Source: a virus
DNA: 64,000 bases
IMG/VR virus record: IMGVR_UViG_3300035670_000038
Coordinates: 1 to 64,000 of that record
Direction: 5' to 3' (one strand)
The translations under genes were made by a program, and so were the position numbers. The notes under the pieces were generated by a model that did not search any database, was not told the DNA's origin, and saw only the letters and a program-made list of their open reading frames with translations. Position 1 is the stretch's first letter, and every line of letters starts with the position of its first letter. Positions 6,465-64,000 of this stretch are shown here, piece after piece.

Positions 6465-6477
6465 CCCATAATATAAT

Positions 6478-6750: not shown

Positions 6751-6753
6751 TTT

Positions 6754-9204
6754 ATGGCGTTGAATCCAGTTGAAACTATGAACGTATTTGCTGATGGTCT
6801 TTCAAAAGAACTTCGCAAACGTTCCTTATCAACAAATTTAGTTAAAACACGCACCCCATTTTTACGGTTCACTACTGCTGCGTATATGGATGATGTAGCT
6901 ACCAGAATGCGTGAAATAAATTCAGCAAATGCAGAAAAATTTGCAAATGATATTACTGGATATAGAGGTTATAAATTTTTTACACTTGGTGTACATGGGT
7001 ACGAACAACTTAATTATAGTATCCACGATTTGTATGGAACCCAAGGAGATAATGGGTTGGTTATTGGTACAACCTATAAGCAAGGTGTACAAAAATTAGT
7101 AAAAACATTTGGAGGTAAAGCTAAAGCAGGTGATACAGTAGCAAAAAATTACCCACCACCAGGTATCACTAATGCAAAAGTAGAACGATTACGTAATGGT
7201 AACGTTCTTAGATTTACTATTGAAACTCAATGTTATACACAAGAACAATTGGAAATGTTGGATATGATATGTTTTGTTCCTGGTATGACTTGTATTTTAG
7301 AATGGGGAACGCAATACTCAACATCAACGAATCAAGAAAAACTTATAAAGACTCTGGATTTCAAGAATCTCAATGCAACAGTAACGTCAGTAGAAAAAGT
7401 ATTAGGTAATCAATCAAGAACATCGTTTATAGAAGAGTGGTGTGAACCGAATGGATACAATTACGATTGGGCAGTAGCAAACATTGCCAATGTAAAAACC
7501 GTTGTACAAGACAATGTATACAAAACTACGATTATAGCATATGGTGTAGCAGATAATTTACTTTATATTTCCGCATACGCTACCAATAATCCATTAAAGA
7601 CCGAAACAGATACATCAACATCATTAACAAATTATTTTAGATTGAACGGTGAATTCAGCAATACACTAAGACAATATGTAACAACACCGGAGTTATTACC
7701 TAATAGAATATACAGAGATCAAATATTAAAGTTTACTGACGATTATAACAGAGAACAACTTATTGATGTGGTACCAACATCACAAAATACAGGACAAGTA
7801 AACGATTTCGGCCTAGAAGATTCCTATTTCATTACTATGCCATTTTTTATAGATTTGATAATAAATGGTCCTGTTAAGCAAATCATTGAGTCGGGATTAC
7901 CGAATAGATTAAACCAATTAATCGCAACTACAGGTGGGCAAGATCCTATATATGTTGGATATAACGAATCATTACGATCCACTAGTCCAGAAGTTTGTAT
8001 CATATATAACAAAAAGGCAAGAACAAGTAATGCAGCATCGGCAGCGGACAAACGTAATTTAGTAGATCAAGCTACTACTTTAGACGCACGTAATATTGGT
8101 GCACTTAAAGGGTTACCAAATACAAATGCTGCAAATATACAAGGAAGTAATACCGACAAAACTAGTGTGTTTGGTGTAATATCTACATTGAATGATAATT
8201 CTTTTGGTAGTGACATAAATACACCCAGTGGTATCACTCCATTAACAAAGGGAGTTTATATAAACAGTAAGGCTATACAATCTGCGTTCATTAATGCACG
8301 TACCTTTATGGAAGGATTTGAAACTCTACTTAGAAATATAAACTCTGCAACAGAAAATTATTGGGATTTAAAATTATTTTTTGATGATGACATCAATGCA
8401 TATCGTATTTTAGATGACAATGTACGTACAGCACCACAAAGTTCTGATATCTACGAATTTAACAAAAGATTGAACAATTTGGATGGTGATACCATAGGAC
8501 CTGATGTACTAAATATTGAGTTAACTACCGATTATCCAAAGATGTTATTTTCTCAATTAGCTGTAACTGGTATAAACGGAGGTACATTAAATAACATAGC
8601 TAGCTCTCCTGATCGTAAAGACGTTGATTTTAAATTAAATACGTCTGTAAGAGACATATTTAAAATACAGATAGGAGAACCACAACAAACATCGGAAGCA
8701 GGATTAAATAGACCCTCTACAGCAATTTTAGAGTTTGCTACTGGATTGAGTCAAACTGAATCGGGAAGATTATTAGCTAGAGAAGGATTCTCATTTGTTG
8801 GTCCACAATTTGCTAGTACATTCGGTAATTATTTTGCAAGTGGAGTTTCCGGTACTGTTACAGACTTAATACGGGGAGTATTTACTTCTACAAATTTACT
8901 ATCTCAGGCAGAGGCTTTGGATTTAAAGCAACGACTATCTAGAGAAACATTAACACAACAACAATCGGCAGCAATAAGTGACTTATTTGCTACACGAGCA
9001 AAGAGTATCATTAGAAGAAATAAACAAAATGAAATAGAAAGATATGAAAAAGCAATAGATGACGCCATCGAAAGTGGAGTGATTACAGATAGATTTGGTC
9101 GTGATGTAACAAATGTAAAACGTGTTGTTCGAGAAGCAATAGAACGTCAAAGAGATGAATTAATATCTCAAATAGACTCTACAATATCAAACGTAAGAAG
9201 ATAA
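6754..9204 (+). CDS. Large baseplate hub structural protein (gp27-like position)
   Basis: An 816-residue protein starting 3 bp after the LysM-like stop. It is rich in Asn/Thr/Ser, has no signal peptide or membrane segment and ends in a charged coiled-coil-like tail (residues about 740-816, with RRNKQNEIERYEKAIDDAI). Internal QEQLEMLDM and CILEWGTQYS stretches are typical of phage hub proteins but do not identify a family for me. Position between LysM and amidase-spike genes suggests the trimeric hub (gp27 role). That is inference from order and size only. Confidence 0.5.
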   Translation: MALNPVETMNVFADGLSKELRKRSLSTNLVKTRTPFLRFTTAAYMDDVATRMREINSANAEKFANDITGYRGYKFFTLGVHGYEQLNYSIHDLYGTQGDNGLVIGTTYKQGVQKLVKTFGGKAKAGDTVAKNYPPPGITNAKVERLRNGNVLRFTIETQCYTQEQLEMLDMICFVPGMTCILEWGTQYSTSTNQEKLIKTLDFKNLNATVTSVEKVLGNQSRTSFIEEWCEPNGYNYDWAVANIANVKTVVQDNVYKTTIIAYGVADNLLYISAYATNNPLKTETDTSTSLTNYFRLNGEFSNTLRQYVTTPELLPNRIYRDQILKFTDDYNREQLIDVVPTSQNTGQVNDFGLEDSYFITMPFFIDLIINGPVKQIIESGLPNRLNQLIATTGGQDPIYVGYNESLRSTSPEVCIIYNKKARTSNAASAADKRNLVDQATTLDARNIGALKGLPNTNAANIQGSNTDKTSVFGVISTLNDNSFGSDINTPSGITPLTKGVYINSKAIQSAFINARTFMEGFETLLRNINSATENYWDLKLFFDDDINAYRILDDNVRTAPQSSDIYEFNKRLNNLDGDTIGPDVLNIELTTDYPKMLFSQLAVTGINGGTLNNIASSPDRKDVDFKLNTSVRDIFKIQIGEPQQTSEAGLNRPSTAILEFATGLSQTESGRLLAREGFSFVGPQFASTFGNYFASGVSGTVTDLIRGVFTSTNLLSQAEALDLKQRLSRETLTQQQSAAISDLFATRAKSIIRRNKQNEIERYEKAIDDAIESGVITDRFGRDVTNVKRVVREAIERQRDELISQIDSTISNVRR

Positions 9205-50066: not shown

Positions 50067-51092
50067 ATGACATACGAAGGTAATGTAAGTAAAAAACCAC
50101 TGAACACAGCGGAGAAAGTCGCTGTGGTTTTCGGTGGTTGTGGTTTTATAGGACACCATCTAGCTCGTAGATTACAACAAGAAGGATATTGGGTCAGAGT
50201 TGCTGACATCAAACCCCCAGAACATTGTGAACTTTCTACTTTCGCAGACGATTTCTATCACGGAGACTTGTCAAATGAAGGTATGACGTACAACGCTCTC
50301 AATCTTGGTAGAACCGATATTGAGGTATATCAACTTGCCGCGGATATGGGTGGTGCACAATATATCTTTAGTGGTGATAATGACGCAAATGTAATGTCAA
50401 ACTCCGCAGCTATCAATCTGAACGTTGTTCGTTCGATGATACGCTTGAAGTTAAAGAAGGTATTCTACTCATCGTCAGCATGTATCTATCCAGAACATAA
50501 CCAGATGGACCCTGACAATCCCAATTGCGAAGAGAGTTCGGCATATCCCGCAAATCCAGATTCGGAATATGGATGGGAGAAATTGTTTAGTGAACGCCTT
50601 TATATGTCATTCAAGAGAAACTATGGTATCGAATGTCGTATTGCACGATTTCATAATATCTACGGACCAGAAGGTACGTGGAGAGGTGGTAAAGAAAAGG
50701 CACCCGCAGCTCTCTGTCGTAAGGTATTGTTTACCCCAAGTGGTCGTTCAATAGAAATGTTTGGAGATGGTAAGCAGACCCGTTCATTCTTATATGTAGA
50801 CGAATGTGTTGAAGGTATTCTTCGATTGATGCGGTCTGATTATTGGAAGCCAGTTAATATTGGTTCGGAAGAAATGATTTCCATCAATGACTTTGCAAAG
50901 ATGATTATGGAAGTTGCTGGTAAGGAACTAGATATTGAACACATTCCAGGCCCACTTGGTGTCCGTGGTCGTTCTTCTGATAATAGACTTGTTCGTGAAG
51001 TATTGGGATGGGAACCAAATGCTCCACTTCGTGAAGGTATAACCAAGACATACAACTGGATTAAGGAAGTTGTAGAGAGTGAAAAGACATGA
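50067..51092 (+). CDS. GDP-mannose 3,5-epimerase-like enzyme
   Basis: A 341-residue extended short-chain dehydrogenase. AVVFGGCGFIGHHLA (NAD), LAADMGGAQYIF, SSSACIYPE, YGWEKLFSE (YxxxK), ARFHNIYGPEGTWRGG, GDGKQTRSFLY and IPGPLGVRGRSSDN line up with plant-type GDP-mannose 3,5-epimerases, which produce GDP-L-galactose and GDP-L-gulose. Few other NAD epimerases share the EGTWRGG and GVRGRSSDN segments. Following gmd, it suggests two different GDP-mannose branches. The stop overlaps the fucosyltransferase-like gene by ATGA. Confidence 0.82.
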   Translation: MTYEGNVSKKPLNTAEKVAVVFGGCGFIGHHLARRLQQEGYWVRVADIKPPEHCELSTFADDFYHGDLSNEGMTYNALNLGRTDIEVYQLAADMGGAQYIFSGDNDANVMSNSAAINLNVVRSMIRLKLKKVFYSSSACIYPEHNQMDPDNPNCEESSAYPANPDSEYGWEKLFSERLYMSFKRNYGIECRIARFHNIYGPEGTWRGGKEKAPAALCRKVLFTPSGRSIEMFGDGKQTRSFLYVDECVEGILRLMRSDYWKPVNIGSEEMISINDFAKMIMEVAGKELDIEHIPGPLGVRGRSSDNRLVREVLGWEPNAPLREGITKTYNWIKEVVESEKT

Positions 51093-51925
51093 TTACGCAT
51101 GTTGGGATAGGAAACTCTGGACGATTTGGTAATCAAATATTCCAACTTGCTGCATTGATTGGTATTGCAGAAAAGAACGGATATGATATAAAGATTCCCA
51201 TAGAGAATACTGATAATCCATTTACATTTTTCGATTTGGCAAAACAACAAGCCGAACCAACTGGTATGGAACTTCGTAGACCATTTCTTATCCCAGACGA
51301 ATACTTTTCTCCATTTACTGACATCGCATCTGTGGTCAAGCAACGATATCAAGAACCATTCTTTCACTTCAATGGTGCAACATTAGATATTCCCGACAAT
51401 ACAGATATTGCTGGATTTTTTCAAAGTGAAAAGTATTTCAAACACGCAGAACAAACGGTTCGTGAAGTACTTACATTCCGTCCAGAAATAAGACAACAAG
51501 CTCAAATAGAATTGGCAAAGGTCAAGGACGATGCACCACGAGTGTCTATCCACGTTCGTCGTGGAGATTATGTAGCAAACTCGGCAAATCATACGGTGAC
51601 GGGTATGGAGTATTATGCTGAAGCTATTAGCAAGTTCTTTTCAAATGAATCATATCGATTCGTTGTATTCTCCGATGACCCAGAATGGTGTAAGGAAATG
51701 TTTGAAGGTGGACATATCGTAGACATCAATAACTCATATGTTGAGATGTGTATGATGAGTATGTGCGACCACCATATTATCGCAAATAGTTCATTCAGTT
51801 GGTGGGGAGCATGGTTAAATCCAAACCCAAAGAAGATTGTCACTGCACCCTCACTCTGGTTTGGTCCGAACCTTCGTCATAATAGTATTGTAGACATTCT
51901 ACCTGATGAGTGGTTTTGGATATGA
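51089..51925 (+). CDS. GT11 (alpha-1,2-fucosyltransferase-like) glycosyltransferase
   Basis: A 278-residue GT11 enzyme: N-terminal GNSGRFGNQIFQLAAL, the donor-binding VSIHVRRGDYV, and the C-terminal SSFSWWGAWLNPN. These are standard for alpha-1,2-fucosyltransferases, which use GDP-fucose (or, in some members, GDP-L-galactose). Neighbouring gmd and the 3,5-epimerase-like gene could provide the donor. Confidence 0.9.
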   Translation: MITHVGIGNSGRFGNQIFQLAALIGIAEKNGYDIKIPIENTDNPFTFFDLAKQQAEPTGMELRRPFLIPDEYFSPFTDIASVVKQRYQEPFFHFNGATLDIPDNTDIAGFFQSEKYFKHAEQTVREVLTFRPEIRQQAQIELAKVKDDAPRVSIHVRRGDYVANSANHTVTGMEYYAEAISKFFSNESYRFVVFSDDPEWCKEMFEGGHIVDINNSYVEMCMMSMCDHHIIANSSFSWWGAWLNPNPKKIVTAPSLWFGPNLRHNSIVDILPDEWFWI

Positions 51926-52521
51926 GATTAAAAGAATTTTATTATCAAATGGCAGAAGTAGAAGGTATTGGATTTTCTGATAAAGGTGACCGTCATCCAA
52001 CACACAAACACTTTTATATTGACATTTATGATGGAATGTTTTCTGCATGGAAGGATGAACCTGTTAAGTTGATGGAACTTGGTATAGCTTCTGGTGCAAG
52101 TTTATTAATGTGGTCACAGTTCTTTACAAAGGGACATATCCTTGGTCTTGACATCGTAGAACCTGTTCGTAAAGAGTATTTGGAAAAATTACCAAATGTT
52201 GGAATGATTTTTGGTGATGCATACAACAATGATAATGCTAAATACCTCGTAGAAAACTTACCAAAGCAAGACATTTTTATTGAAGATGGTGCACACGATA
52301 TAGATAATCAAATTACAGCACTACTGAAATATAATACACTCGTTAGACCAGGTGGATATTATATTTGCGAAGATTTATATATTGCAAATCTTGCAAGATA
52401 TCTCACCGAAGGTGTCTATCAAATAAACAATAGAAATTTTACAACCACTATATTTGACCAACATCGTCGTATCAATGGTTTGTATGACGATGTTATGGTT
52501 ATCATTCAATTCTTAAATTAA
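51922..52521 (+). CDS. Class I SAM methyltransferase
   Basis: A 199-residue Rossmann methyltransferase: VKLMELGIASGASLLMW (SAM-binding), HILGLDIVEP, and LVRPGGYYICEDLY. The pattern fits sugar O-methyltransferases of macrolide or polysaccharide clusters (CmcI/TylF-like). It starts at the ATG at 51922 in an ATGA overlap. Probable role: methyl capping of a glycan. Confidence 0.75.
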   Translation: MRLKEFYYQMAEVEGIGFSDKGDRHPTHKHFYIDIYDGMFSAWKDEPVKLMELGIASGASLLMWSQFFTKGHILGLDIVEPVRKEYLEKLPNVGMIFGDAYNNDNAKYLVENLPKQDIFIEDGAHDIDNQITALLKYNTLVRPGGYYICEDLYIANLARYLTEGVYQINNRNFTTTIFDQHRRINGLYDDVMVIIQFLN

Positions 52522-52522
52522 T

Positions 52523-53299
52523 ATGAAGATAGCATTGTGTTTATCTGGACAACCACGGGGATTACCTTTATCACTTAAAATGTTAAAGGCAAATCTTGTG
52601 GGTATAGAAAACATGGATATATTCTTACACGCATGGTTTGACCCATCTACAATCGGTCAACCATACGATAGTGCGCAAGCACATCAACAAGGTCGTGTGG
52701 GATTAGTGCATCCACAAACAGAAGAAATGTTATTGGGATTAACCCCAAAAGATTATTTGTTTGAACCACAAAAAGAATTTCCGTTTGCACGAAAGTTTGT
52801 ATCACCACCAGAGGCAAACCAAGAAAGAATGGCAAGTATTTTCTATTCCATCTATACCGCAAATATGTTGAAGAAACGATACGAAATATTGAACGGATTC
52901 GAATACGATTTGGTAATTCGTGCACGATATGATTTGTGGTATGAACAACCTATCGATGTGATGGAATATTGGGAGCAGTCTAGAACACACATTGTTACAG
53001 CTAATAAGTTTCAAGGAATACGAAACGACCCTAATTTTCAGCAGGGTAGTTATACGATGACAGACATCTTTGCATTCTCTACATCAAAAAATATGAACGT
53101 ATTTTGTGATACTTATCCGCACTTCTCGTTTATTCATTCGCAGATTGATATTCCATATGGTGAAAATTATATCGGGTATAGAGTTCGTGTGATGGGTGGA
53201 ATCGAAGCATACTGTGCTCCATTTAATTATGAAATAATGCATCGTGTGGTCAATATAAACAATTTAGAAGAACTGGAAAAACAATATGCCGCGTACTGA
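52523..53299 (+). CDS. Glycosyltransferase-like protein
   Basis: A 258-residue protein beginning MKIALCLSGQPRGLPLSLK, with FEYDLVIRARYDLWYE in the middle (the DxD-like RxRYD found in some GT-A proteins of phage and algal-virus clusters). The opening SGQPR recurs in these proteins. Exact family and donor unknown. It sits between a methyltransferase and another sugar-transfer-like gene. Confidence 0.6.
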   Translation: MKIALCLSGQPRGLPLSLKMLKANLVGIENMDIFLHAWFDPSTIGQPYDSAQAHQQGRVGLVHPQTEEMLLGLTPKDYLFEPQKEFPFARKFVSPPEANQERMASIFYSIYTANMLKKRYEILNGFEYDLVIRARYDLWYEQPIDVMEYWEQSRTHIVTANKFQGIRNDPNFQQGSYTMTDIFAFSTSKNMNVFCDTYPHFSFIHSQIDIPYGENYIGYRVRVMGGIEAYCAPFNYEIMHRVVNINNLEELEKQYAAY

Positions 53300-54158
53300 T
53301 TTTACACCAGATAATGTTGAACTCTGGATTTCCAACTGGCGGAGAAAGGAATTGATGGATGGATTCGCACGTCAGTGGTTAAATACATTTGACTTCGAAC
53401 GAGTCAATATTATCACCAATCACTCATCGGTCACTATTGATGACTTCGCAGATGACATCAAACCTCGTGTCAAGATTTGGAACAATGTAATGCGACACGA
53501 CTACGCAATCGGTCCAATGGTTGAGAATTATAATCAGGCATATGTTCATACCTTCCTCGCTGGTAAAAAGTATTGTATAACGGCACATGACAATATGATT
53601 ATCAAGGATGGGTGGGTTGACATTATCAAAGAAACTGATTATGATTTATATATGGCCCCACAAGGTGACCAAGTAACTTTGATGACATTGGAAGGATTAC
53701 GTTTCTTTGGTTGGTGGGATGAACGATATGCAACAAATGGAAACCACGAATTGGATTTCAGTACACGTGCATTACGTAGAGATTTAGGACATAATAGAGC
53801 ATCAATGGTTGATTATCACGCATGGCATAACTGGCCTGATAAGATAGATGTGGAAGGAGAAATTGTAAGTCCAATATGTAGAAATGGACATCCAGAATTC
53901 GGTGATGGGTTTCCATACCTTAGATGGAATGATATAGGACTGGATAAATACTGGACAAGAGCCAGTAAGCATGACGTTCCACAATGTGGACCCAAGACAC
54001 AGAAGTTTGAGAAGTTGACTTGGAACGATAGGAAGTGGAGAGGACAGGCACCAAACACTTTCAAGAATTTCGCAGAAGGACCAGCAGAACCAGAACTTGA
54101 TTGGTATCCGTGGTTAGATATAAATTCACTAGACTTTGACATTTGTAAAATAGTATAA
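53286..54158 (+). CDS. GT-A-like glycosyltransferase
   Basis: A 290-residue protein with KKYCITAHDNMIIKDGW (a DN-type metal site) and FGWWDERYATNGNHELDF (typical of the acceptor-binding WWDE segment of GT2-like enzymes). It overlaps its upstream neighbour by 14 bp and is followed by ribB. Donor and acceptor unknown. Confidence 0.6.
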   Translation: MPRTDFTPDNVELWISNWRRKELMDGFARQWLNTFDFERVNIITNHSSVTIDDFADDIKPRVKIWNNVMRHDYAIGPMVENYNQAYVHTFLAGKKYCITAHDNMIIKDGWVDIIKETDYDLYMAPQGDQVTLMTLEGLRFFGWWDERYATNGNHELDFSTRALRRDLGHNRASMVDYHAWHNWPDKIDVEGEIVSPICRNGHPEFGDGFPYLRWNDIGLDKYWTRASKHDVPQCGPKTQKFEKLTWNDRKWRGQAPNTFKNFAEGPAEPELDWYPWLDINSLDFDICKIV

Positions 54159-54170
54159 GGGGAAAATTAA

Positions 54171-54806
54171 ATGTTATCACAAAAGATTCAGGCAGCACTC
54201 GAAGATATTCGTAACGGAAAACCAATCATCGTTGTTGACAGTTATGATAGAGAAAATGAAGGTGACTTGATGATTGCCGCAGAGAAGGCAACTCCACAAA
54301 CCTTGGCGTTTATCGCAAAGGAAGCACGTGGAATTATGTGTATTCCTACACCAAAGTTTATGTTGGACCGTTTGGAAATTCCAATGAGTCCATCAAACAA
54401 CAATGACAAGTTTTCTACTCCATTCACAGTTAGTATTGACGCACGTGATGGTGTCACTACTGGCGTAAGTGTTGAAGATCGTATGGTCACGATTGGATTG
54501 GTGTTGGATGAGAACACCAAACCAGAACAACTTGCGTACCCAGGTCACTTATTTCCACTTCGTCCTCGTCCTGGTTTATTAAAAGAACGTCAAGGTCATA
54601 CGGAAGCATCAGTTCAACTTGCGATGATGGCTGGAACGAAACCAGTGGCAATCATCTGTGAGATTATGAATGACGATGGTAGCATGGCTCGTATTCCAGA
54701 CCTCGAACCATATGCAGAGAAGTGGGGACTTAATATGATTTCTATTGATGAAGTCATCGAATACTGTAATGAAACTGGATGGGAACCACCATTTAATGTT
54801 GGGTAA
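54171..54806 (+). CDS. ribB: 3,4-dihydroxy-2-butanone-4-phosphate synthase
   Basis: Converts ribulose-5-phosphate to 3,4-dihydroxy-2-butanone-4-phosphate plus formate. Catalytic signature DRENEGD lies near residue 25, with EARGIMCIPTP, DARDGVTTGVS, HLFPLRPRPGLL and HTEASVQLAMMAG completing the family pattern. At 211 residues it is a stand-alone RibB without a RibA fusion. No other riboflavin gene is visible, so the product may be diverted to glycan or sugar-phosphate use, or the substrate may differ. It has a GGGGAAAA ribosome site. Confidence 0.92.
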   Translation: MLSQKIQAALEDIRNGKPIIVVDSYDRENEGDLMIAAEKATPQTLAFIAKEARGIMCIPTPKFMLDRLEIPMSPSNNNDKFSTPFTVSIDARDGVTTGVSVEDRMVTIGLVLDENTKPEQLAYPGHLFPLRPRPGLLKERQGHTEASVQLAMMAGTKPVAIICEIMNDDGSMARIPDLEPYAEKWGLNMISIDEVIEYCNETGWEPPFNVG

Positions 54807-54809
54807 ACA

Positions 54810-55496
54810 ATGCGTGTAGCAGTTGTAACTTCTCCAAGAACAGGTTCTTCGTTTTGTATAAAATTAATATCCGAATTACTAAATCTTGAAAACTATGAAG
54901 AAATTTTAAATGAGCAGTTATATGTTTTTGAAGATGATAGCCACGTTCGTATTAATACCAACATAACAAACGAAAAAATATTGGAGAAATTATTACACAC
55001 AAATGATTATGTTGTAAAAATAATGGCTTCGGAGTTGTTTGAGAGAAATTTTAATGTAAGTGATTTTCCGTGGGATAAGTTTGATTTAATCATACTACTA
55101 GAACGTGACAATATATTCGAGCAAATAACCAGTTGGTATAGTTTAAATTATTGGCAACAACGTGTTACAAATACTACTACCTCCGAATACAACATAAAAG
55201 ATAAATTTCTTAGATATACAATTGAATGCATAAAAAAATATCACATCGTAAAAGATTTGATAATCCAGAATAGAAATAAGTTTGTTGTGATGGAAAAAGA
55301 AAACATAATAAATGATGTATCTGTAATATTCGACACGCAAATCACAGATGATATAATACTTCGTGCAAGAAAAAAATTAGTTCCTGAATGTGATTTGAAC
55401 GATATTGATTACGAAGTAATAATGAGTAATCAAAATATAAAACAAAGAGTATTAAGTATATTGGAGCAAGAATTAAATGGAACGGATAGTAACTAG
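54810..55496 (+). CDS. Second sulfotransferase-like protein
   Basis: A 228-residue protein opening MRVAVVTSPRTGSSFC, matching the PAPS-binding loop of the sulfotransferase at 38899 (STPRTCSSYL). DFPWDKFDLIILLERDNIFEQITSW parallels its second motif. It overlaps the kinase gene by 20 bp and would fit sulfation of the sugar made by this cassette. PAPS could come from the APS-kinase-like gene at 22856. Confidence 0.62.
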   Translation: MRVAVVTSPRTGSSFCIKLISELLNLENYEEILNEQLYVFEDDSHVRINTNITNEKILEKLLHTNDYVVKIMASELFERNFNVSDFPWDKFDLIILLERDNIFEQITSWYSLNYWQQRVTNTTTSEYNIKDKFLRYTIECIKKYHIVKDLIIQNRNKFVVMEKENIINDVSVIFDTQITDDIILRARKKLVPECDLNDIDYEVIMSNQNIKQRVLSILEQELNGTDSN

Positions 55497-56469
55497 AGCA
55501 TACAATAGATTCGAAATAGATGAAACCAGAGGTGTCATTCGTAAGTTGAGTGCTACCCCCCGGCTTCGTGATGAGATACAATATTATGTTAAGTTAGTTA
55601 ATGCCCATCCACGTGAAGCTACGTTCTTCCCAAGATTGTTTCAATGGTCAGCAGAGGGTGAGAATCATTGGATGGATTTGGAAATGTATGATTATCCCAA
55701 CTTAGGTAAATATCTCCTAGCAGAAGATATACTACCTGAATGGTATTCTGTTTTAGATAAACTAAAAAATATTCTTCTACACTGGTCTACAACGCATCCA
55801 TATTCTGTGTGGACAAAGGAAGAAATTCGTCAGGCAGCATTCGATATGTACATCACCAAAACAGAACGAGAACAAAAAGCATTCTATAACGGATGGAAAG
55901 ATAAACTTGATTGCATATTTCTTGACCAGATAAAAAATCATATAATCTATATTAACAAAAAAGAATATAAACCATTTGAAATTATTTGGTTGCAAGTACG
56001 AAAGTACATAGAAGAAAATATGTTGGAGTTTACACCTTCCCTTATCCACGGTGATTGTTGTTTTAGTAATATTCTATATGGTAAGGATAAGAAAATTATA
56101 CGATTTATAGACCCACGTGGTTCTTTCGGTAAAGATGGTATATACGGAGATATTAGATACGATGTGGCAAAATTGTATCACTCTGTGGATGGAACATATG
56201 AATCATTTATTACAGATAAATTTGAAGTATCAAGTAATGGTAATTTACATGATTTGATTCTAACAGGTCATATGTCAAGAATAGAAACCAGTCATGCGTT
56301 GGAAGCTTTTGAAAATACTTTCTTCCCGCAATTTAATAAGAAAGAAATTAAGATATTGCAAGGATGTATTTTTATTGGAATGTGTGCTCGTCACTATGAT
56401 AGTTTAGAAAGACAACACGCAATGTATCTAACCGGAATCCGTTTACTTAATGAGGCTATGGAACTATGA
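55477..56469 (+). CDS. Aminoglycoside/choline-kinase-fold sugar or alcohol kinase
   Basis: A 330-residue APH-fold kinase. The catalytic loop SLIHGDCCFSNILYG (HGDxxxxN) and the metal motif IIRFIDPRGSFG (D) are intact. These kinases act on choline, ethanolamine, sugars or polyols. It is followed by a nucleotidyltransferase (4 bp overlap), like LicA-LicC type pairs where a phosphorylated alcohol is activated by CTP. Substrate not known. Confidence 0.72.
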   Translation: MERIVTRAYNRFEIDETRGVIRKLSATPRLRDEIQYYVKLVNAHPREATFFPRLFQWSAEGENHWMDLEMYDYPNLGKYLLAEDILPEWYSVLDKLKNILLHWSTTHPYSVWTKEEIRQAAFDMYITKTEREQKAFYNGWKDKLDCIFLDQIKNHIIYINKKEYKPFEIIWLQVRKYIEENMLEFTPSLIHGDCCFSNILYGKDKKIIRFIDPRGSFGKDGIYGDIRYDVAKLYHSVDGTYESFITDKFEVSSNGNLHDLILTGHMSRIETSHALEAFENTFFPQFNKKEIKILQGCIFIGMCARHYDSLERQHAMYLTGIRLLNEAMEL

Positions 56470-57236
56470 ATATACTAGTATTGATGGCTGGTAGAGGTCA
56501 ACGATTCCGTGATAAAGGATACGATAAGCCAAAACCATTAATCGAAGTTAATGGTAAGACAATTCTTCAATGGACAACCGAATCATGCCCATACATCAGT
56601 CATAATGGTAAGGGACAAGGTGATTATATAAAACTCCACTTTGCAGTTCTCCAAGAGCATTTAGACGAAGGATTGGATAAATTTCTGTATTCCGTTTATG
56701 GTCGTGATATTGAAATTATTCCATTCAAGGAAGTAACCAGAGGTAGTTTAGATACCGCGATGCAAGCAGCATCTCGTATGTGGCATAAAGAATATCCATT
56801 GTTGGTATTAGATTCCGACAACAAATATAATGACAATGGTTTTAAAGATTTTGTTCGTGAAATAGTCTTTAAAAAGAACGCAATGGCAGTGGCATGCTTC
56901 GACAATCCAGACCAATCACTTCCTAATAAGTGGTCAAATGTAGATGTTCGTGAAGGAGTGGCAAAAGGAATTCGTGAAAAAGACGATTCGTGGGTTCATC
57001 ATCCCACAATGATTGGAATATTCTACTTTGGTCAAACTAAGTTCTTTAAGGAATATGCAAAGTTTATTATGGAGTTTCATAAACCAGTAGAGTTTAATGG
57101 GAACGCAGAGTATTATATGAGTATGGTTCCGTCTTATAATATCGGTATAAATACTCCTGTATATGTTCACAAAGTCACCGATGTTGTTCCACTTGGAACA
57201 CCAGAAGATGTTAAAAAGTTTGAGGAATCTATATGA
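56466..57236 (+). CDS. Sugar-phosphate nucleotidyltransferase
   Basis: A 256-residue GT-A-fold nucleotidyltransferase: ILVLMAGRGQRFRDKGYDKPKPLI with the GxGxRF...KP signature, and LVLDSDNKYNDNG near the metal site. It forms an NDP-sugar or CDP-alcohol from a phosphate. A second such enzyme lies at 58443. Coupled by ATGA to both neighbours. Confidence 0.82.
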   Translation: MNILVLMAGRGQRFRDKGYDKPKPLIEVNGKTILQWTTESCPYISHNGKGQGDYIKLHFAVLQEHLDEGLDKFLYSVYGRDIEIIPFKEVTRGSLDTAMQAASRMWHKEYPLLVLDSDNKYNDNGFKDFVREIVFKKNAMAVACFDNPDQSLPNKWSNVDVREGVAKGIREKDDSWVHHPTMIGIFYFGQTKFFKEYAKFIMEFHKPVEFNGNAEYYMSMVPSYNIGINTPVYVHKVTDVVPLGTPEDVKKFEESI

Positions 57237-57613
57237 TTTTTTGTTTTGACATTGATGCAACTATCTGTGAAAATAAAACTGGTGATATGACTTACGCAGA
57301 TGTTAAACCATTCCCAGAAGCATTGGAAACATTACGATGGTTACGAGCAGAAGGACACACCATTATTCTTCATACTGCACGACATATGAAAACTGGTGGT
57401 GGAAATCAAGGAAAGGTATTGAAATTACAAGGTAAAGTATTATTTGATTGGCTAGAAAAGTGGGATGTTCCATATGATGAACTTTGGTGGAGTAAACCAC
57501 ACGCCGATTTAACGATAGATGATGCAGTACATAGACACACAGATTGGGCAACCTCAATCTTAGCAATAAAAGATAGAATACGTAAAGGACCAAGAACCGT
57601 GGAGAATCCATAA
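57233..57613 (+). CDS. HAD-family phosphatase (capsule-type)
   Basis: A 126-residue HAD phosphatase with the nucleophile motif FDIDATICENKTGDM (D6 and D8), LHTARHM and the later HADLTIDDAVHR. Short HADs of this kind are common in capsule or LPS operons, where they dephosphorylate a sugar or polyol phosphate. Overlaps both neighbours by 4 and 1 bp. Confidence 0.82.
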   Translation: MIFCFDIDATICENKTGDMTYADVKPFPEALETLRWLRAEGHTIILHTARHMKTGGGNQGKVLKLQGKVLFDWLEKWDVPYDELWWSKPHADLTIDDAVHRHTDWATSILAIKDRIRKGPRTVENP

Positions 57614-58446
57614 TGTCACAACCAACATTCTTTTTTGACACAGCAGACACCGACTATATCCGTAAGATTTGGGACAAGTTGGGTAAGTATATTGACGGTA
57701 GTTCCGTAATCGGAATAACCACCAACCCAAACGCATTGGCAAAGGTCAATTGCGATACACTTGAAAAGTTTGAAACACTTGTACCACAGATGACTTCACT
57801 TGTTGGAGAACTTCGTGGTGAAGGACCACAAGGATTGGTCTATGTACAAGTTCCAAATTCTACAATGAAGGATGAAGATATTCTTCGTTGGGCAACCTAT
57901 GTGAATGAGTTTAATGGAAACGGTGCAGCAATCGCATTAAAACTTCCTCATTTCAGTTATGTCCTTCGTTTATCTGGTGAACCTGAATTACAAAATCTTT
58001 TCCTAAATGTAACTGGTGTATCGGATGCAAATACAATCATTAAGGCGTTGAGTTACCAGAATGTATTCTTCGCAAGTATTATTCCAGGTCGTATGGAAGA
58101 AGTTGGTATTGATGCAAACGCACATCTCAAATATTTGGCTGACCAACAACTCCAACGTCACCAGAACATAATCGCTGGTAGTATGAGAACAATTGAAGGA
58201 TTGAAGAACTCTATCTTCTATCACACGGTTCCGACCATCGGTAGTCGTGTATGGGATTTGATTGATAAGGAAAATCGTTGGGAAGAATTTGCATCCTATT
58301 GGGAAACCACATATGAAGTCTCAGAAGAACCAAGTGCTGACTACACACCATTGGTTACAGATACGAATCTGGATTTAAGTAAGCAATTCTTTGACCAGAT
58401 GGATAAGTTGGGTGAATCACTTCATACGGAGTTTATGTCCAGATGA
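57613..58446 (+). CDS. Transaldolase (FSA/TalC family)
   Basis: A 277-residue transaldolase-fold protein: FFFDTADTDYI, GITTNPNALAK, a putative Schiff-base K110 in AIALKLPHF, LNVTGVSDAN, SIIPGRMEEVG and IIAGSMRTIEGL. These align with E. coli FSA/TalC landmarks. It is longer than FSA (220), with an insertion before the catalytic lysine and an extra C-terminal helix. It moves three-carbon units between sugar phosphates, so it may feed or drain the same pool as RibB and the RuBisCO-like protein. Cyanophages often carry talC, though not in such a cassette. Confidence 0.82.
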   Translation: MSQPTFFFDTADTDYIRKIWDKLGKYIDGSSVIGITTNPNALAKVNCDTLEKFETLVPQMTSLVGELRGEGPQGLVYVQVPNSTMKDEDILRWATYVNEFNGNGAAIALKLPHFSYVLRLSGEPELQNLFLNVTGVSDANTIIKALSYQNVFFASIIPGRMEEVGIDANAHLKYLADQQLQRHQNIIAGSMRTIEGLKNSIFYHTVPTIGSRVWDLIDKENRWEEFASYWETTYEVSEEPSADYTPLVTDTNLDLSKQFFDQMDKLGESLHTEFMSR

Positions 58447-59162
58447 ACATAATCATCCCAATGGCAGGTGAGGGGACTCGTGTAAAAAGCACAGTTCCCA
58501 AACCACTTGTCGAGGTTATTAGTGGAAAACCAATGATTGAGATGGCATTGGAATCATTAAACATTGATGGACATTATTGTTTTATTGTTCGTCGTTATAA
58601 CAATCAAGATTGGAATGTCGCACTTCGTGAAGCAATCCACAAAACGGTAGGAAATGCGGTGATTGTGGAAATCGACTATCTAACAAAAGGACCAGCGATT
58701 TCTGCATTACATGCACCAAATCTTTTCTTTAATGATGAAGATTTATTGGTTACCAACTGTGACCAGATAATGCATTGGGATGCAGACAAGTTTATCGACT
58801 TCACCAAGACAACAGATGCGGATGGTGCTGTGGTCACATATGAAACACAAACACCAAAGAATAGTTACGCAAGAGTTATATCGGACGAAGAACATCCTGA
58901 ATTTGATATTATAAAAGAAAAGGAAGTTATTAGTAAATATTCATTAAATGGTATTCATTGGTGGAAGCATGGAAAGAACTTTGCAAAATCAGTGGTGAAG
59001 ATGATGGAAAGTAAAGACACAGTAAATGGTGAATACTACGTTGGTCCATCATACAATTATTTAGATGGTACTAAGAGAGTTTACAATATAGATTCATCAG
59101 AACATTTTGCTGTTGGAACTCTGGAAGATATTGAACGATATAGGGTGATTTATGGACGTTAA
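58443..59162 (+). CDS. Second sugar-phosphate nucleotidyltransferase
   Basis: A 239-residue protein with MNIIIPMAGEGTRVKSTVPKPL, a GxGTR...KP signature, and NCDQIMHWDADKF in the metal region. It resembles small sugar-1-phosphate nucleotidyltransferases. The similarity to the 56466 gene is limited to the fold signature, so the two probably have different substrates. Overlaps transaldolase by ATGA and the cupin by 11 bp. Confidence 0.8.
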   Translation: MNIIIPMAGEGTRVKSTVPKPLVEVISGKPMIEMALESLNIDGHYCFIVRRYNNQDWNVALREAIHKTVGNAVIVEIDYLTKGPAISALHAPNLFFNDEDLLVTNCDQIMHWDADKFIDFTKTTDADGAVVTYETQTPKNSYARVISDEEHPEFDIIKEKEVISKYSLNGIHWWKHGKNFAKSVVKMMESKDTVNGEYYVGPSYNYLDGTKRVYNIDSSEHFAVGTLEDIERYRVIYGR

Positions 59163-59478
59163 ACGTATTGAGAATATGAAGGGTGGATGGTTTATTGGGG
59201 ACTTCGACCCTGCCGTTTTACGAACCCACGACTTTGAAGTAGGGTATAAGTTTCATCCAAAAGGTGAGAAGTGGGACAAACACTATCACAAACGAGCAGT
59301 CGAGATTACATATCTGATTCGTGGCAAGATGCAAATACAGGATAGGATATTGACTTCTGGTGATATATTCACTATACTTCCGTATGAAGTTGCAGACCCA
59401 ATTTTCTTAGAAGATTGTGAAGTAGTAATAGTAAAAAGCCCATCCGTTGTGGGTGACAAATATACTATAGAGGAATAA
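59152..59478 (+). CDS. Cupin-domain protein
   Basis: A 108-residue single cupin: DKHYHKRAVEITYLIRGKMQIQDRIL gives the metal-binding HxH...E pattern, and SGDIFTILP the second box. Cupins serve as sugar isomerases, epimerases or binding proteins. It lies directly before the RuBisCO-like gene with a 3-bp gap, making a joint reaction likely. Confidence 0.72.
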   Translation: MDVKRIENMKGGWFIGDFDPAVLRTHDFEVGYKFHPKGEKWDKHYHKRAVEITYLIRGKMQIQDRILTSGDIFTILPYEVADPIFLEDCEVVIVKSPSVVGDKYTIEE

Positions 59479-59481
59479 GTT

Positions 59482-60711
59482 ATGAGTGTTAATATTTTTA
59501 CACGTGATGTAGATTTATCAAAATATTTTGTTGTCAAGTATTTCTTAGTCGGTAAGACATCACTACGTGATGCTGCATGGAACTTGGCAATTGGACAAAG
59601 TATCGGCAATCCCAACAACAGAAGTGTGTGGGAAACCGACCAGATGTTTCTTGACCACAGTTGTTTCATTCTTGCAGACGAAGGGGAACTAAAATCAAAG
59701 ACTTCTGGTGAAGTTGAGATTGCTTTCCCACTCGCAAACATCAATCTTGAAGAAGATGGTGTGTCTCAAATTCTTTGCCATATCGCCGGTGGTCAAGTAG
59801 ATATTCTCGAAATTGAACAGTGCCACGTATTAGACATCACATTACCAGAAGAAATTGACCAGATGTTTACCCTCAAACCTGCGTATGGTATCACAGGTTT
59901 CCGTGAATTCAATTGGGTAGAAAATAAACCATTCTTCGGTGGTATCATCAAACCCAAGGTTGGTATGAGTCCAAAGGTATTGTTGGAAGCTGTGAAGGAA
60001 ATGGTTGACGGTGGTGTGAACTTTATCAAGGAAGATGAGTTACTTGGTGACCCATCACACTGTTCACTAAAAGAACGAGTTCCACTCATCTCTAACTGGT
60101 TAAGAAAGAATTGTCCAGAGGTAATGTATACCTTCTGTATCAATGGTGATAGTCCTTACGCACTCCAACGAGCACAGTTCGTAGAGGATGAAGGTGGACT
60201 TGGTGTTCACATCAACGTGTGGAGTGGGTTGGGTGTCTATCGTGCAATTCGTAAGCAGAATCCTAGACTCTGGATTCATTTCCAGAAGTCGGGTGATAAG
60301 TTCTTTACTGACAGACGAGCACCAAATCATATCTATTGGCCTGTTATCTGTAAGATTGCAGGATGGTCTGGTGCAGACTCTATTCACGCAGGTATGATTG
60401 GTGGATATATGAACCAAGACGATACTGAATTGAAGGACGCACTAAAGGTATTGTGGAAGTATAATGTTATCCCAGCACTCAGTTGTGGAATGCATCCTGG
60501 ATTAGTTCAACACATCAACACTTTACTTGGTAGTAATGATTGGATGGCAAACGTTGGTGGGGCGATGCACGGACACCCGATGGGAACCAAGGCTGGTGGA
60601 TTGGCAATGCGCCAAGCTATTAGTGGATTCCACGGACCAGAGTATGAAGCTGCAATCAAGAAATGGGGATTCAAAGAAGTAAACCCTGATTTACAATATA
60701 GAATTTTTTAA
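59482..60711 (+). CDS. RuBisCO-like protein (large-subunit fold)
   Basis: A 409-residue member of the RuBisCO superfamily. Recognisable parts: IIKPKVGMSPK with K157/K159 (plant K175/K177), FIKEDELLGDP with K183, D185 and E186 (carbamyl-lysine and metal ligands), H266 near plant H294, SIHAGMIGGYM with H302 (plant H327), SCGMHPG with S334, and VGGAMHGHPMG with G359/G360. The loop-6 lysine is replaced by Y309, and the N-terminal substrate residues E60, T65 and W66 are not visible. Together with an HPG segment typical of form IV, this argues for an enolase or isomerase-type reaction on a sugar phosphate, not CO2 fixation. Neighbours: transaldolase, RibB, nucleotidyltransferases. Confidence 0.88.
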   Translation: MSVNIFTRDVDLSKYFVVKYFLVGKTSLRDAAWNLAIGQSIGNPNNRSVWETDQMFLDHSCFILADEGELKSKTSGEVEIAFPLANINLEEDGVSQILCHIAGGQVDILEIEQCHVLDITLPEEIDQMFTLKPAYGITGFREFNWVENKPFFGGIIKPKVGMSPKVLLEAVKEMVDGGVNFIKEDELLGDPSHCSLKERVPLISNWLRKNCPEVMYTFCINGDSPYALQRAQFVEDEGGLGVHINVWSGLGVYRAIRKQNPRLWIHFQKSGDKFFTDRRAPNHIYWPVICKIAGWSGADSIHAGMIGGYMNQDDTELKDALKVLWKYNVIPALSCGMHPGLVQHINTLLGSNDWMANVGGAMHGHPMGTKAGGLAMRQAISGFHGPEYEAAIKKWGFKEVNPDLQYRIF

Positions 60712-60723
60712 TAGGAATATACA

Positions 60724-61380
60724 ATGGTCACCCAAGACATCCTTAATGCAATATCAAGAACCCCAACAGACATCTACGGATTGAAATGGGCACCTTCGGT
60801 AGAACCTACTATTGGTAATGATGTGGATTGGATTAATCCAACTCGTGGAAATTGGTCAATTCATTGGAGTGCAGCTAATGATATAGCACTTCGTGAAGCA
60901 TGGTCACGATGTGAGAGTTCTCCAAAACTTATTGTTGAAATCGGTGTACACCGCCCGGAAAGAAATGACGAAGGACGTTCTTCCACAAGTACGTTACTCA
61001 GTTTAAAGGATGACGATTGTATGTACATTGGTATAGATTTAGCAGACAGAACATTCTTAAACGATATGGGTAAGAATATATTTACCATCCAAGGTGATTC
61101 ATCAAACAAGAATGAAGTGTATAAATTGATGGAATGGTATGGTAAAGAAACTATTGATTTTATGTTTGTAGATGGATGGCATTCGATTAATCAATGCTTA
61201 CGAGATTGGCAATATTGGGAAAGAATTTCAAACACAGGTGTTATGGCGTTCCACGATACAAATTATCATCCAGGACCAGTTGCACTTCTTGACGCTGTAG
61301 ACGAATCGATATTTGATATACAGATATTTAATCGTGATGAAGATGACGCCGGTGTTGCATACGTAAAACGTAGAGGTTAA
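60724..61380 (+). CDS. Class I SAM methyltransferase
   Basis: A 218-residue methyltransferase with KLIVEIGVHRPERN (SAM loop), YIGIDLADR, TIQGDSSN, DFMFVDGWHS and MAFHDTNYHPGP. This is the Methyltransf_24/CmcI-like layout. Follows the RuBisCO-like gene by 12 bp with AGGAAT upstream. Probably methylates the cassette's sugar or a nearby group. Confidence 0.75.
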   Translation: MVTQDILNAISRTPTDIYGLKWAPSVEPTIGNDVDWINPTRGNWSIHWSAANDIALREAWSRCESSPKLIVEIGVHRPERNDEGRSSTSTLLSLKDDDCMYIGIDLADRTFLNDMGKNIFTIQGDSSNKNEVYKLMEWYGKETIDFMFVDGWHSINQCLRDWQYWERISNTGVMAFHDTNYHPGPVALLDAVDESIFDIQIFNRDEDDAGVAYVKRRG

Positions 61381-61381
61381 T

Positions 61382-62293
61382 ATGGCAAAGGGTTTGATTT
61401 CAATATTTACATTACCGCACGAGATTGATAATCTTCAAACAACGTTATACAATCTTCGTAGAAACTATGCGGTGATGTCTGGGCACGAATTCGGATTTGA
61501 CATAACTCTGTGTTTAAGTGATGAACTTACAGATTGGAATACTTCACAATTATCTAGAGAATACTTTGCAAGTAAGTATCGGCAAATTGTAGATAGTTTG
61601 TGTGATTGGGCAACGTTAGAAAGTATCAAGATTGAATATGGAAACACTATTCTTGGATGTGTGTCGCAACGTAGACACTCATTAAAATTCTTGAATAAAT
61701 ATGATTTCACGATGTGGTTAGACAATGATATGTTTTTCAATGATTATCTGTTGGCATATGTTGGTACATCGGTAAATATGTTATTAGAACAAGGTATAGA
61801 ACACTATGTTCTCACACCACAGATTACACGGCAGTGGGATGAAACGTGGGATGTCATTGTCAACAAAGATTTGTTAGATAGACCACTCAATGACAATTTA
61901 ACCGCCGATGTATTTGACTTGGGTTTAACACCGAGTGGTAATGTTGGATTACGACCAATAGAAACCTTTAAAGCTGCGGGTGGATGGTGTACAACAATTA
62001 GTAATGATTTGTTAGAACTTACTGGTATTCCAGATTCATTCGGTCATTACGGATTGGAAGATACATATGTCTTAGTGTGTGCAGATTTACTTCGTAGAAT
62101 GAATCGTAAAGAAAAACCACAACAGTTTGTAATTGACAATTTGATTGTTGGTGAAAACCACAGATATCAAACTAGTGATTACTTGAAGAATCATCTTGTA
62201 TCTTTCGATAGAAAAGATGAGTTTAGACAAATAGCAACAAACAACTTTAATAGTGAGATTGAAAAGTTTATCCAACGGATGCTTCAACAATGA
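61382..62293 (+). CDS. GT-A-type glycosyltransferase candidate
   Basis: A 303-residue protein with a GT-A-like centre: LKFLNKYDFTMWLDNDMFFND contains the DxD metal site, with SGNVGLRPIETFKAAGGW as an acceptor-region segment. It begins MAKGLISIFTLPHEIDNL. Donor and acceptor unknown. Overlaps the next gene by 4 bp. Confidence 0.65.
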   Translation: MAKGLISIFTLPHEIDNLQTTLYNLRRNYAVMSGHEFGFDITLCLSDELTDWNTSQLSREYFASKYRQIVDSLCDWATLESIKIEYGNTILGCVSQRRHSLKFLNKYDFTMWLDNDMFFNDYLLAYVGTSVNMLLEQGIEHYVLTPQITRQWDETWDVIVNKDLLDRPLNDNLTADVFDLGLTPSGNVGLRPIETFKAAGGWCTTISNDLLELTGIPDSFGHYGLEDTYVLVCADLLRRMNRKEKPQQFVIDNLIVGENHRYQTSDYLKNHLVSFDRKDEFRQIATNNFNSEIEKFIQRMLQQ

Positions 62294-63048
62294 AAATCTT
62301 TTACAGAATATCAGAATCTACTAATTCACAACACGCAGCTGCAAGAACGTGGCAAGTGAAACTTCCAAATGCAACAAAAAAGAATTGCTTACTCAATACG
62401 ATGGAATGTTTTCCAACCGCAGAGATAAAAGTGTTTGTAGACTCAATTACCGATGAAACGTGGAATTGGTTACACACTCTCCCACGAATCACTATCCAGA
62501 AGATTAATGAAGGTTCTGATGCAAAGTCTATGCGGGTGTTATTGAAGGAAGCAGTATTATTAGAAGATGATAATCAAATCGTATTGTTCCAAGAAGATGA
62601 TTATCTATATCTACCTGGGTCAGAGAAGAAGATAATAGAAGCATTAAACTATTCTCACTACGCTACTGGATATTTACATCCCGACAAGTTTTGGCATCCA
62701 AGTCGTGGTGGTAATCCATTCACTCCGATGGATAATGTGTCCGAAGCAACACAAGTCATAAAAACTTCTGACCATTTCTGGATGGTTACAAACTCCACAA
62801 CAAACACATTCGCAACCACGGTTGGTGTATTAAAGGAAGATATTGATGTGTGGATGTGGGGAACAGAAGATTTAATTAATACAAAAGACTTCGCAATCTT
62901 TCTTAAACTTCGTGAGAAGGGTCGAGCATTGGTGCAACCACTACCATCATTAGCAACACATTGTCTCAAAGGATACGAAGCACCTACTGTTGGATTAGAT
63001 ATTGATTCTTGGGAAAGCATACAACCCTTGACACCAACCACAGAGTAG
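62290..63048 (+). CDS. Glycosyltransferase-like protein
   Basis: A 252-residue protein with IVLFQEDDYLYLPGSEKKI, an EDDY acidic site of GT-A type, and TGYLHPDKFWHPSRGG. It is likely another sugar transferase, but the fold is inferred from these two segments only. Precedes a 41-bp gap before the final gene. Confidence 0.55.
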   Translation: MKIFYRISESTNSQHAAARTWQVKLPNATKKNCLLNTMECFPTAEIKVFVDSITDETWNWLHTLPRITIQKINEGSDAKSMRVLLKEAVLLEDDNQIVLFQEDDYLYLPGSEKKIIEALNYSHYATGYLHPDKFWHPSRGGNPFTPMDNVSEATQVIKTSDHFWMVTNSTTNTFATTVGVLKEDIDVWMWGTEDLINTKDFAIFLKLREKGRALVQPLPSLATHCLKGYEAPTVGLDIDSWESIQPLTPTTE

Positions 63049-63052
63049 TTTA

Positions 63053-63060
63053 TATTTATA
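63053..63060 (+). promoter_or_regulatory. Candidate late-promoter-like octamer TATTTATA
   Basis: TATTTATA, 37 bp before the epimerase start at 63090, directly after the preceding stop. It is the last of the six-site set. Confidence 0.38.
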
Positions 63061-63089
63061 TCTTAGAACCCTTAACATAATATATTATA

Positions 63090-64000
63090 ATGATTAATAA
63101 AGTATTAATTACGGGCGTAGGTGGACTATTGGGTTCACGACTCGCAGATTGGATTTTAGCAAATAAACCAGGTGTAGAAGTTATTGGTATTGACGATTTT
63201 AGTGGTGGATATAGAGAGAACGTTGACCCACGGGTAAAATTGTACGTAATGGATTTGGGTAAGCAATCCGCAGAACGTATCTTCGACGAACACAGACCCG
63301 ACCTCGTGTATCACTTCGCAGCATATGCCGCAGAAGCATTGTCTCCATTCATTCGACAATATAACTATGTAAACAATCTTCTTGCAACTGCAGGGATTGT
63401 TAATAACTGCATCAAGTATGACGTAAAGCGTATTGTCTTTACTTCATCTATGGGTGTGTATGGCTTCGGTGCAAACCAACCTCCGTTCCACGAAGATATG
63501 GCACGAGCACCAATCGATCCATATGGTATTGCAAAGGCAGCGTGTGAACAAGATATCGAAGTGGCTGGAGTCCAACACGGATTAGATTGGTGTATCATCC
63601 GTCCACACAACGTGTTCGGTGCAAAGCAAAACATTTGGGACAGTTACAGAAACGTTCTTGGTATCTGGATGTACAAGCATCTTACTGGTCAACCGTTAAC
63701 TATCTTTGGTGATGGAGAACAAAAACGTGCATTCAGTTGTATTGATGACTCATTAGAACCACTCTGGAATGCTGGAACCTATGAGAAGGCATCCAAGCAG
63801 ATTATCAACCTTGGTGGTATTCACGAATATAGTATCAACATAGCAGCACAGACATTGATTGGGGTTATGGGTGGTGGTCGAGTCAAGTATCTCCCACCCC
63901 GTCACGAAGTCAAGTACGCATATCCAACGTGGCAGAAGTCGGTTGATATTCTTGGGTTCCAACACAAGACCGATTTGTATGAAGGATTACAGAAGATGTG
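63090..64000 (+). CDS. NAD-dependent sugar epimerase/dehydratase, 3'-truncated by window edge
   Basis: An extended short-chain dehydrogenase of UDP-glucose-epimerase type with no stop before the window ends (303 residues seen). KVLITGVGGLLGSRLADW (NAD binding), FTSSMGVYG (catalytic S), YGIAKAACEQD (YxxxK) and RPHNVFGAKQNIWDS are present. The FGDGEQKRAFSC segment matches sugar epimerases. It extends the carbohydrate region beyond the window. Confidence 0.85.
   Translation, partial: MINKVLITGVGGLLGSRLADWILANKPGVEVIGIDDFSGGYRENVDPRVKLYVMDLGKQSAERIFDEHRPDLVYHFAAYAAEALSPFIRQYNYVNNLLATAGIVNNCIKYDVKRIVFTSSMGVYGFGANQPPFHEDMARAPIDPYGIAKAACEQDIEVAGVQHGLDWCIIRPHNVFGAKQNIWDSYRNVLGIWMYKHLTGQPLTIFGDGEQKRAFSCIDDSLEPLWNAGTYEKASKQIINLGGIHEYSINIAAQTLIGVMGGGRVKYLPPRHEVKYAYPTWQKSVDILGFQHKTDLYEGLQKM

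Follow-up and report, generated by a model that had tools for sequence, protein, structure and literature searches.

A RuBisCO-like protein encoded within a glycan gene cassette of tailed phages

The RuBisCO-like gene and its surroundings

The stretch of DNA analysed here (the window) comprises the first 64,000 nucleotides of IMG/VR virus record IMGVR_UViG_3300035670_000038. It belongs to a tailed phage: genes for a helicase, baseplate hub, DnaB, ribonucleotide reductase, DNA polymerase, ligase and endolysin share the window, in support of the phage origin proposed in an initial annotation of this DNA. Among them lies an uninterrupted open reading frame of 409 codons from ATG, which encodes a protein of the RuBisCO superfamily, a RuBisCO-like protein (RLP). 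The glycan or nucleotide-sugar cassette in which the RLP was first placed is also found, with nucleotidyltransferase, cupin, glycosyltransferase (GT), methyltransferase and epimerase genes around it (Table 1).

Table 1. Genes of the cassette and active-site codons of the RLP, in window positions.
Feature	Position	Strand	Basis
Upstream flanking glycan genes	50067..54158	+	neighbourhood annotation
NAD-sugar epimerase	start 50067	+	glycan flank
GT11 fucosyltransferase	start 51089	+	glycan flank
Methyltransferase-like	start 51910	+	glycan flank
GT-like proteins	starts 52523, 53286	+	putative GT role, from context
RibB, 3,4-dihydroxy-2-butanone 4-phosphate synthase (strong match)	54171..54806	+	profile matches
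APH/kinase-like protein	55477..56469	+	database match
Second NTP transferase	56466..57236	+	profile matches
HAD phosphatase (EcbF/BcbF capsule phosphatase-like, below cut-off)	57233..57613	+	profile match
Divergent transaldolase-like protein	57613..58446	+	Pfam TAL_FSA 1.9e-4 (below cut-off), PHROG 440 4.1e-15
Sugar-phosphate nucleotidyltransferase (GlmU/RmlA-like), 239 aa	58443..59162	+	Pfam/NCBIfam profiles, family in 51/55 lineages
Small cupin, 108 aa, HxH...E motif, directly upstream of RLP	59152..59478	+	PHROG 24762
RLP, 409 aa	59482..60711	+	Pfam, PDB matches, AlphaFold model
N43-P44, replacing T65-W66 (P1 phosphate site); E60 = G38	59608..59613	+	alignment
G104-Q105; G104 replaces N123	59791..59796	+	alignment
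K157-P158-K159 (RuBisCO K175-P-K177), kept; K157 proposed general acid/base	59950..59958	+	alignment
K183-E184-D185-E186 (K201 carbamyl-lysine, D203/E204 metal ligands), kept 55/55	60028..60039	+	alignment
Q268-K269-S270-G271-D272, replacing H294-R295-x-x-H298	60283..60297	+	alignment
H302 (H327, kept) to Y309 (replaces loop-6 K334); loop with lower model confidence	60385..60408	+	alignment, AlphaFold
S334-C335-G336 (S379-G380-G381); S and G kept, C clade-invariant	60481..60489	+	alignment
Downstream glycan genes	60724..63998	+	ORF list, profiles
Methyltransferase	start 60724	+	downstream glycan genes
Unassigned protein	start 61382	+	downstream glycan genes
Weak GT-2-like	start 62290	+	downstream glycan genes
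NAD epimerase-like, runs off window	start 63090	+	downstream glycan genes

The assignment as an RLP, made initially by reading motifs, was confirmed by profile, sequence and structure comparisons. Pfam model RuBisCO_large (PF00016) matched the protein with an E-value of 7.6e-33, which places it in the RuBisCO superfamily and not in an unrelated family. The best solved relatives in a PDB sequence search were the RLP 3nwr (E 1.4e-32) and form III RuBisCOs, while C. tepidum RLP (1tel) and R. palustris RLP2 (2qyg) gave 59-65 bits only. All NCBIfam models for RuBisCO and RLPs matched, each far under its cut-off: the best form III model reached 151 bits (cut-off 497), the OiaX equivalog 113.6 bits (cut-off 700), so that the protein is not OiaX by score, and the MtnW (YkrW clade) models, likewise too low for membership, 95.3 and 65.8 bits (cut-offs 409 and 513.6).

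An AlphaFold model built on an alignment of 51 sequences had a pLDDT of 92.1 and a pTM of 0.90. It shows the N-terminal domain and TIM barrel of the RuBisCO fold, and the top PDB chains found by Foldseek were all RuBisCO or RLP (E 3.6e-29), with a TM score of 0.84 to form III RuBisCO. Among the matches listed for the viral protein models of BFVD, the TM score over the RLP query was at most 0.39 and no full-length RuBisCO-fold protein was present, and a hand-made N-terminal RLP probe of 32 aa added nothing when searched against the PDB. Between the RLP gene of the window and those of two relatives, dN/dS was about 0.06.

The transaldolase, RibB, HAD phosphatase and kinase genes of the window recur alongside the RLP only in its closest relatives. 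Cyanophage S-SKS1 lacks an RLP but has these genes, its RibB being fused to an NTP transferase. Transaldolase and RibB were therefore rejected as functional partners of the RLP. Homologues next to a transaldolase, as envisaged initially, do exist in these closest relatives, but the consistent partners are instead a nucleotidyltransferase, a cupin and a GDPD-like protein. Together, the RibB, NTP transferase, kinase, HAD and transaldolase genes look like a separate nucleotidyl pathway from ribulose 5-phosphate. The fusion gene of S-SKS1 (L028, 7001-8428) is clustered with the kinase, HAD and transaldolase genes, and PHROG 3980 points the same way.

Kept and replaced active-site residues

Residues were mapped by multiple alignment with form I, form III, Patescibacteria RuBisCO and OiaX-type references, and their conservation was assessed over 55 lineages (clusters at 90% identity, with relatives down to 48% identity). 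RuBisCO residues K175, K177, K201, D203 and E204 are kept in the phage RLP as K157, K159, K183, D185 and E186, and H327, S379, G381 and G403-G404 as H302, S334, G336 and G359-G360. Replaced are E60 (by G38), T65 (N43), W66 (P44), N123 (G104), H294 (Q268), R295 (K269), H298 (D272), K334 (Y309) and G380 (C335). Kept and replaced positions are the same in all 55 lineages, except for D272, which is Ser in one, and G359-G360, which falls in a gap in one. The carbamyl-lysine and both acidic metal ligands are therefore present by alignment in every lineage, while K334, E60, N123 and H294, expected of a bona fide RuBisCO, have given way to Y309, G38, G104 and Q268. As a RuBisCO homologue without essential carboxylase residues, the protein is a form IV member in the broad sense.

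The motifs first read from the translation were largely correct: KPK (157-159) and KEDE (183-186) are exact, SCGMHPG (334-340) and GGAMHGHPMG (359-368) are both there, and SIHAG is present but lies at 300-304, one residue off the given 301-305. The multiple alignment also bore out the earlier hand alignment, in which K334 corresponded to Y309, E60, T65 and W66 had no visible equivalents (G38, N43 and P44 stand there) and the carbamyl-lysine, metal ligands and phosphate-binding glycines (G336, G359-G360) were retained. The changes at N123, H294, R295, H298 and G380 come in addition.

In RuBisCO, the C3 proton is abstracted by the carbamate on K201, and K175 protonates and deprotonates the enediol. 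R295, H327 and S379 hold one phosphate. The CO2 steps, and hence carboxylation, depend on E60, N123, H294 and K334.

A near-exclusively viral clade with a conserved operon

In a profile scan of IMG/VR, 88 viral contigs were found to encode relatives of the RLP, 80 of which were kept (48-89% identical). When 84,980 species genomes of bacteria and archaea were scanned with the peptides VWETDQM and NFIKEDE, the latter invariant in the clade, one cellular relative emerged, 53-54% identical, in a Patescibacteria MAG (L026). Its surroundings, read by eye, appear to hold cellular glycan genes and no phage genes; at 6467-9182, a GDPD-like gene and a cupin lie directly 5' of the RLP and an NTP transferase is on the opposite strand. 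The isolate phage records searched contained no RLP match. The distribution of the clade is near-exclusively viral. T4-type major capsid protein gp23 was encoded in 12 of the 14 RLP-bearing virus records tested; it was not found in the window's own record, which may be incomplete. The cassette was also seen in a phage record of more than 500 kb with a T4-type gp23 (L102, 518,643 bases).

The RLP was placed in a superfamily tree, as the initial annotation had suggested. By maximum likelihood the phage RLPs and the MAG protein form one clade with 100/100 support, whose long stem separates it from the references of the tree: form I, form III, the Patescibacteria RuBisCO group and, for form IV, the OiaX/3nwr group. 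In this tree the phage RLPs do not belong to form I or form III. Relative to these reference groups they make up a new branch, a position that is provisional towards classical form II and the named form IV clades MtnW, DeepYkr, Photo, NonPhoto, AMC and GOS.

The gene neighbourhood is conserved as well. A nucleotidyltransferase family is found near the RLP in 51 of the 55 lineages, usually two genes upstream, and a 106-aa cupin family in 49, immediately upstream in 44. A GDPD-like family of about 146 aa (mini-GDPD) lies within 5 kb in 46 lineages, as the next or next-but-one gene downstream in 36, and a GT-like family is nearby in 33. Epimerases (19/55), methyltransferases (15/55) and other families (14 or fewer) are less frequent; further neighbours are GDP-mannose dehydratases, FkbM/TylF/CmcI methyltransferases, UDP-glucose dehydrogenases and GTs. 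The NTP transferase, cupin and GDPD-like genes are nearly always on the strand of the RLP, usually in the order NTP-cupin-RLP. The phage RLP sits in a small conserved operon, which appears to serve the making of an activated sugar. Distances of the RLP and its partners correlate weakly to moderately (Spearman 0.22-0.39, above permutations); the weakness of this correlation indicates that the module has often been reshuffled or reassembled.

The GDPD-like family matches the glycerophosphodiester phosphodiesterase 7e0v with a profile E-value of 1.4e-4 and carries HRG, E-N, E-x-D and H-D motifs. No such gene turned up in the 131-kb record from which the window is taken. Mini-GDPD proteins (e.g. 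L006:9230-9667) have no clear Pfam or NCBIfam match and correspond to PHROG 34507, where a function is unassigned.

A compact NTP-cupin-RLP-GDPD-GT cassette is present in a T4-like group of records (L006, L007, L018, L022, L023, L025, L104 and L106). Fusions of a HAD phosphatase with an NTP transferase occur in phage glycan clusters, identified by Pfam at L005:2164-3531 and by sequence clustering at L072:6280-7653, L084:4774-6138 and in cyanophages S-CAM9 and DSL-LC03. Such a fusion suggests dephosphorylation of a sugar bisphosphate ahead of activation.

Proposed function and relation to known systems

With a probability of roughly 0.55, the RLP is a non-carboxylating RuBisCO-fold enzyme, by which a host sugar phosphate is converted through Mg2+/carbamate-lysine proton transfer to another sugar phosphate, which is NTP-activated for a glycan. 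K183 would carry the carbamate and, with D185 and E186, hold Mg2+. A ketose phosphate would be bound at its far phosphate by K269, H302 and S334 and at the other end by G336, G359 and G360. The carbamate and K157 would then move a proton via a 2,3-enediol(ate), and reprotonation at another position would give an isomer or epimer; CO2 would not be added, with E60, N123, H294 and K334 all replaced. Given that the proton-transfer and phosphate-binding residues are kept (R295 as Lys) and those of the CO2 steps are not, the simplest outcome would be that a phosphorylated sugar is isomerised or epimerised. The adjacent cupin may further alter the product, after which the nucleotidyltransferase would join the sugar phosphate to an NTP, and the glycosyl- and methyltransferases of the cassette would build the activated sugar into a glycan on the host surface, the virion or DNA. 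Because a sugar-phosphate nucleotidyltransferase is the third constant member of the operon, the product is probably converted to an NDP-sugar that the cassette transferases use. The substrate would come phosphorylated from the host, as there is no sugar kinase in the core operon.

A precedent for an isomerase is RLP1 of Rhodospirillum rubrum and Rhodopseudomonas palustris, a ketose-phosphate 1,3-isomerase; in R. palustris, the product is processed further by a cupin whose gene carries the neighbouring number (PMC5893883). Several points count against the isomerase or epimerase proposed here. The kept residues would suit a decarboxylase or retro-aldol reaction too, and a simple NDP-sugar pathway has no obvious step for the GDPD-like protein, whose gene was not detected in the window's record. 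The core has no sugar kinase, and the distances of the RLP follow those of its partners only weakly. The wider proposal, put at about even odds, is that this phage-borne branch, nearly absent from cells, is the isomerase or epimerase of a dedicated NTP-cupin-RLP-mini-GDPD pathway, providing T4-like and jumbo phages with a new activated sugar for glycan or DNA.

It is rather unlikely that the RLP acts as a decarboxylase or retro-aldol enzyme, like OiaX on 3-oxo-isoapionate 4-phosphate, and makes a short sugar phosphate for activation. OiaX likewise has Gly at position 123, its model does match the phage protein, at the score given above, and enolate chemistry would be in common. However, OiaX and its relatives retain K334 and an E/D at position 60 and adjoin catabolic genes (aldo/keto reductases, four-carbon acid sugar kinases, TRAP transport), whereas sugar-acid enzymes are absent from the RLP operon and the phage clade stands apart with full support.

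Somewhat less probable still is the same enzymology with the activated sugar placed on phage DNA (hypermodification) rather than on host or virion glycans. T4 relatives glucosylate their DNA, and the compact cassette of the T4-like group lies within replication genes, between a RuvC-like gene and gp32 (names by eye from sequence), where it is possibly a DNA modification module. In most lineages, on the other hand, the surroundings of the cassette are typical of surface-glycan loci, with epimerases, FkbM/TylF methyltransferases and many GTs.

A methylthio-sugar enzyme of methionine/isoprenoid salvage, like RLP1 and with the cupin as methylsulfurylase, is improbable. The R. palustris RLP-cupin gene pair speaks for it (PMC5893883), the cupins being likened by description, but the recurring neighbours of the phage RLP are a nucleotidyltransferase and glycan genes, the named recurrent families include none of MtnP, MtnA or Met17 type, and the MtnW models score far under their cut-offs.

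True RuBisCO, carried as an auxiliary metabolic gene (AMG) to fix CO2 during infection, is the usual reading of 'rbcL' in viral metagenomes, and viral rbcL has been published as carbon fixation (PMC8506154, PMC12607003). For the present clade it is very improbable and was rejected. The carbamyl-lysine site is retained, but all four carboxylation residues are replaced and the replacements fixed in the clade, the form III score is less than a third of its cut-off, and the operon is of the glycan type. The absence of phosphoribulokinase (0 of 14 related phage records) and psbA (0 of 12) likewise disfavours CO2 fixation. A catalytically dead relic or scaffold, for which the partial loss of RuBisCO residues could be cited, is hardly credible with the catalytic triad, K157 and phosphate-site residues invariant over 55 lineages and a dN/dS so low.

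Known RLP roles are methionine salvage and sugar-acid breakdown. To our knowledge, a role in activated-sugar biosynthesis has not been described for the RuBisCO family. No paper found in the open-access literature searched described an RLP from a glycan or nucleotide-sugar operon, nor this clade, its operon, active site or role. This agrees with the initial view of an undescribed system, although the RLP of the window is not unique, given the 88 contigs. If the proposed function is correct, the RLP clade, tied to a nucleotidyltransferase and a cupin and present in at least 88 viral contigs, adds a biosynthetic role to a well-known enzyme fold, one new for the superfamily if confirmed by assay, and gives phages a new way of making an activated sugar. 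At least some 'rbcL' genes of phage metagenomes should not be taken as viral CO2 fixation. The clade offers a small, well-conserved and testable system in which RuBisCO chemistry would have been redirected after CO2 addition was lost.

As judged by description, members of the phage clade may already be among the divergent RuBisCO homologues of earlier metagenome reports, some of which lie in viral contigs. Global Ocean Sampling (2007) gave 65 homologues outside known clades (PMC1821046), and viral rbcL was counted among the carbon-fixation AMGs of Great Salt Lake (PMC8506154) and of landfill viruses, where it clusters with 'RbcL-like' proteins and was also found in a random IMG/VR set (PMC12607003). 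These reports proposed CO2 fixation or left the role open, and contained no operon, active-site or functional analysis of the phage clade. The nucleotide-sugar clusters of Kyanoviridae (S-CAM9, Bellamy, SynMITS9220M01, DSL-LC03, B23, S-SM2) share the NTP transferase (HAD fusion) and GDPD-like genes with the RLP operon, and two of them its cupin family as well, but have no RLP in any isolate phage record searched.

Among cellular RLPs, MtnW, the 2,3-diketo-5-methylthiopentyl-1-phosphate enolase, has the RuBisCO fold and enolisation in common with the phage RLP; the latter reaches 65.8-95.3 bits against MtnW cut-offs of 409-514, and no methionine-salvage genes were seen near it. DeepYkr RLP1, the 5-methylthioribulose-1-phosphate 1,3-isomerase, resembles it in the isomerase chemistry proposed for the phage RLP and in being paired with a cupin, which for RLP1 acts on the sugar-phosphate product, the RLP/cupin pairs being compared by description, but functions in methionine salvage with no nucleotidyltransferase partner described. 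RLPs of the OiaX/3nwr type are, like the phage RLP, not expected to fix CO2, and OiaX shares the Gly at the N123 position; they differ in keeping K334 and E/D60, in their sugar-acid catabolic operons and in being monophyletic apart from the phage clade. Form III and II/III RuBisCOs (Pyrococcus horikoshii 2cwx/2d69, Methanococcoides burtonii 9dyp) share the fold, with N-domain and TIM barrel (TM 0.84), and the equivalents of K175, K177, K201, D203, E204, H327, S379, G381 and G403-404. From these enzymes the phage RLP differs at E60, T65, W66, N123, H294, R295, H298 and K334, in its identity of about 20-27%, in its separate clade and in its place within a glycan operon.
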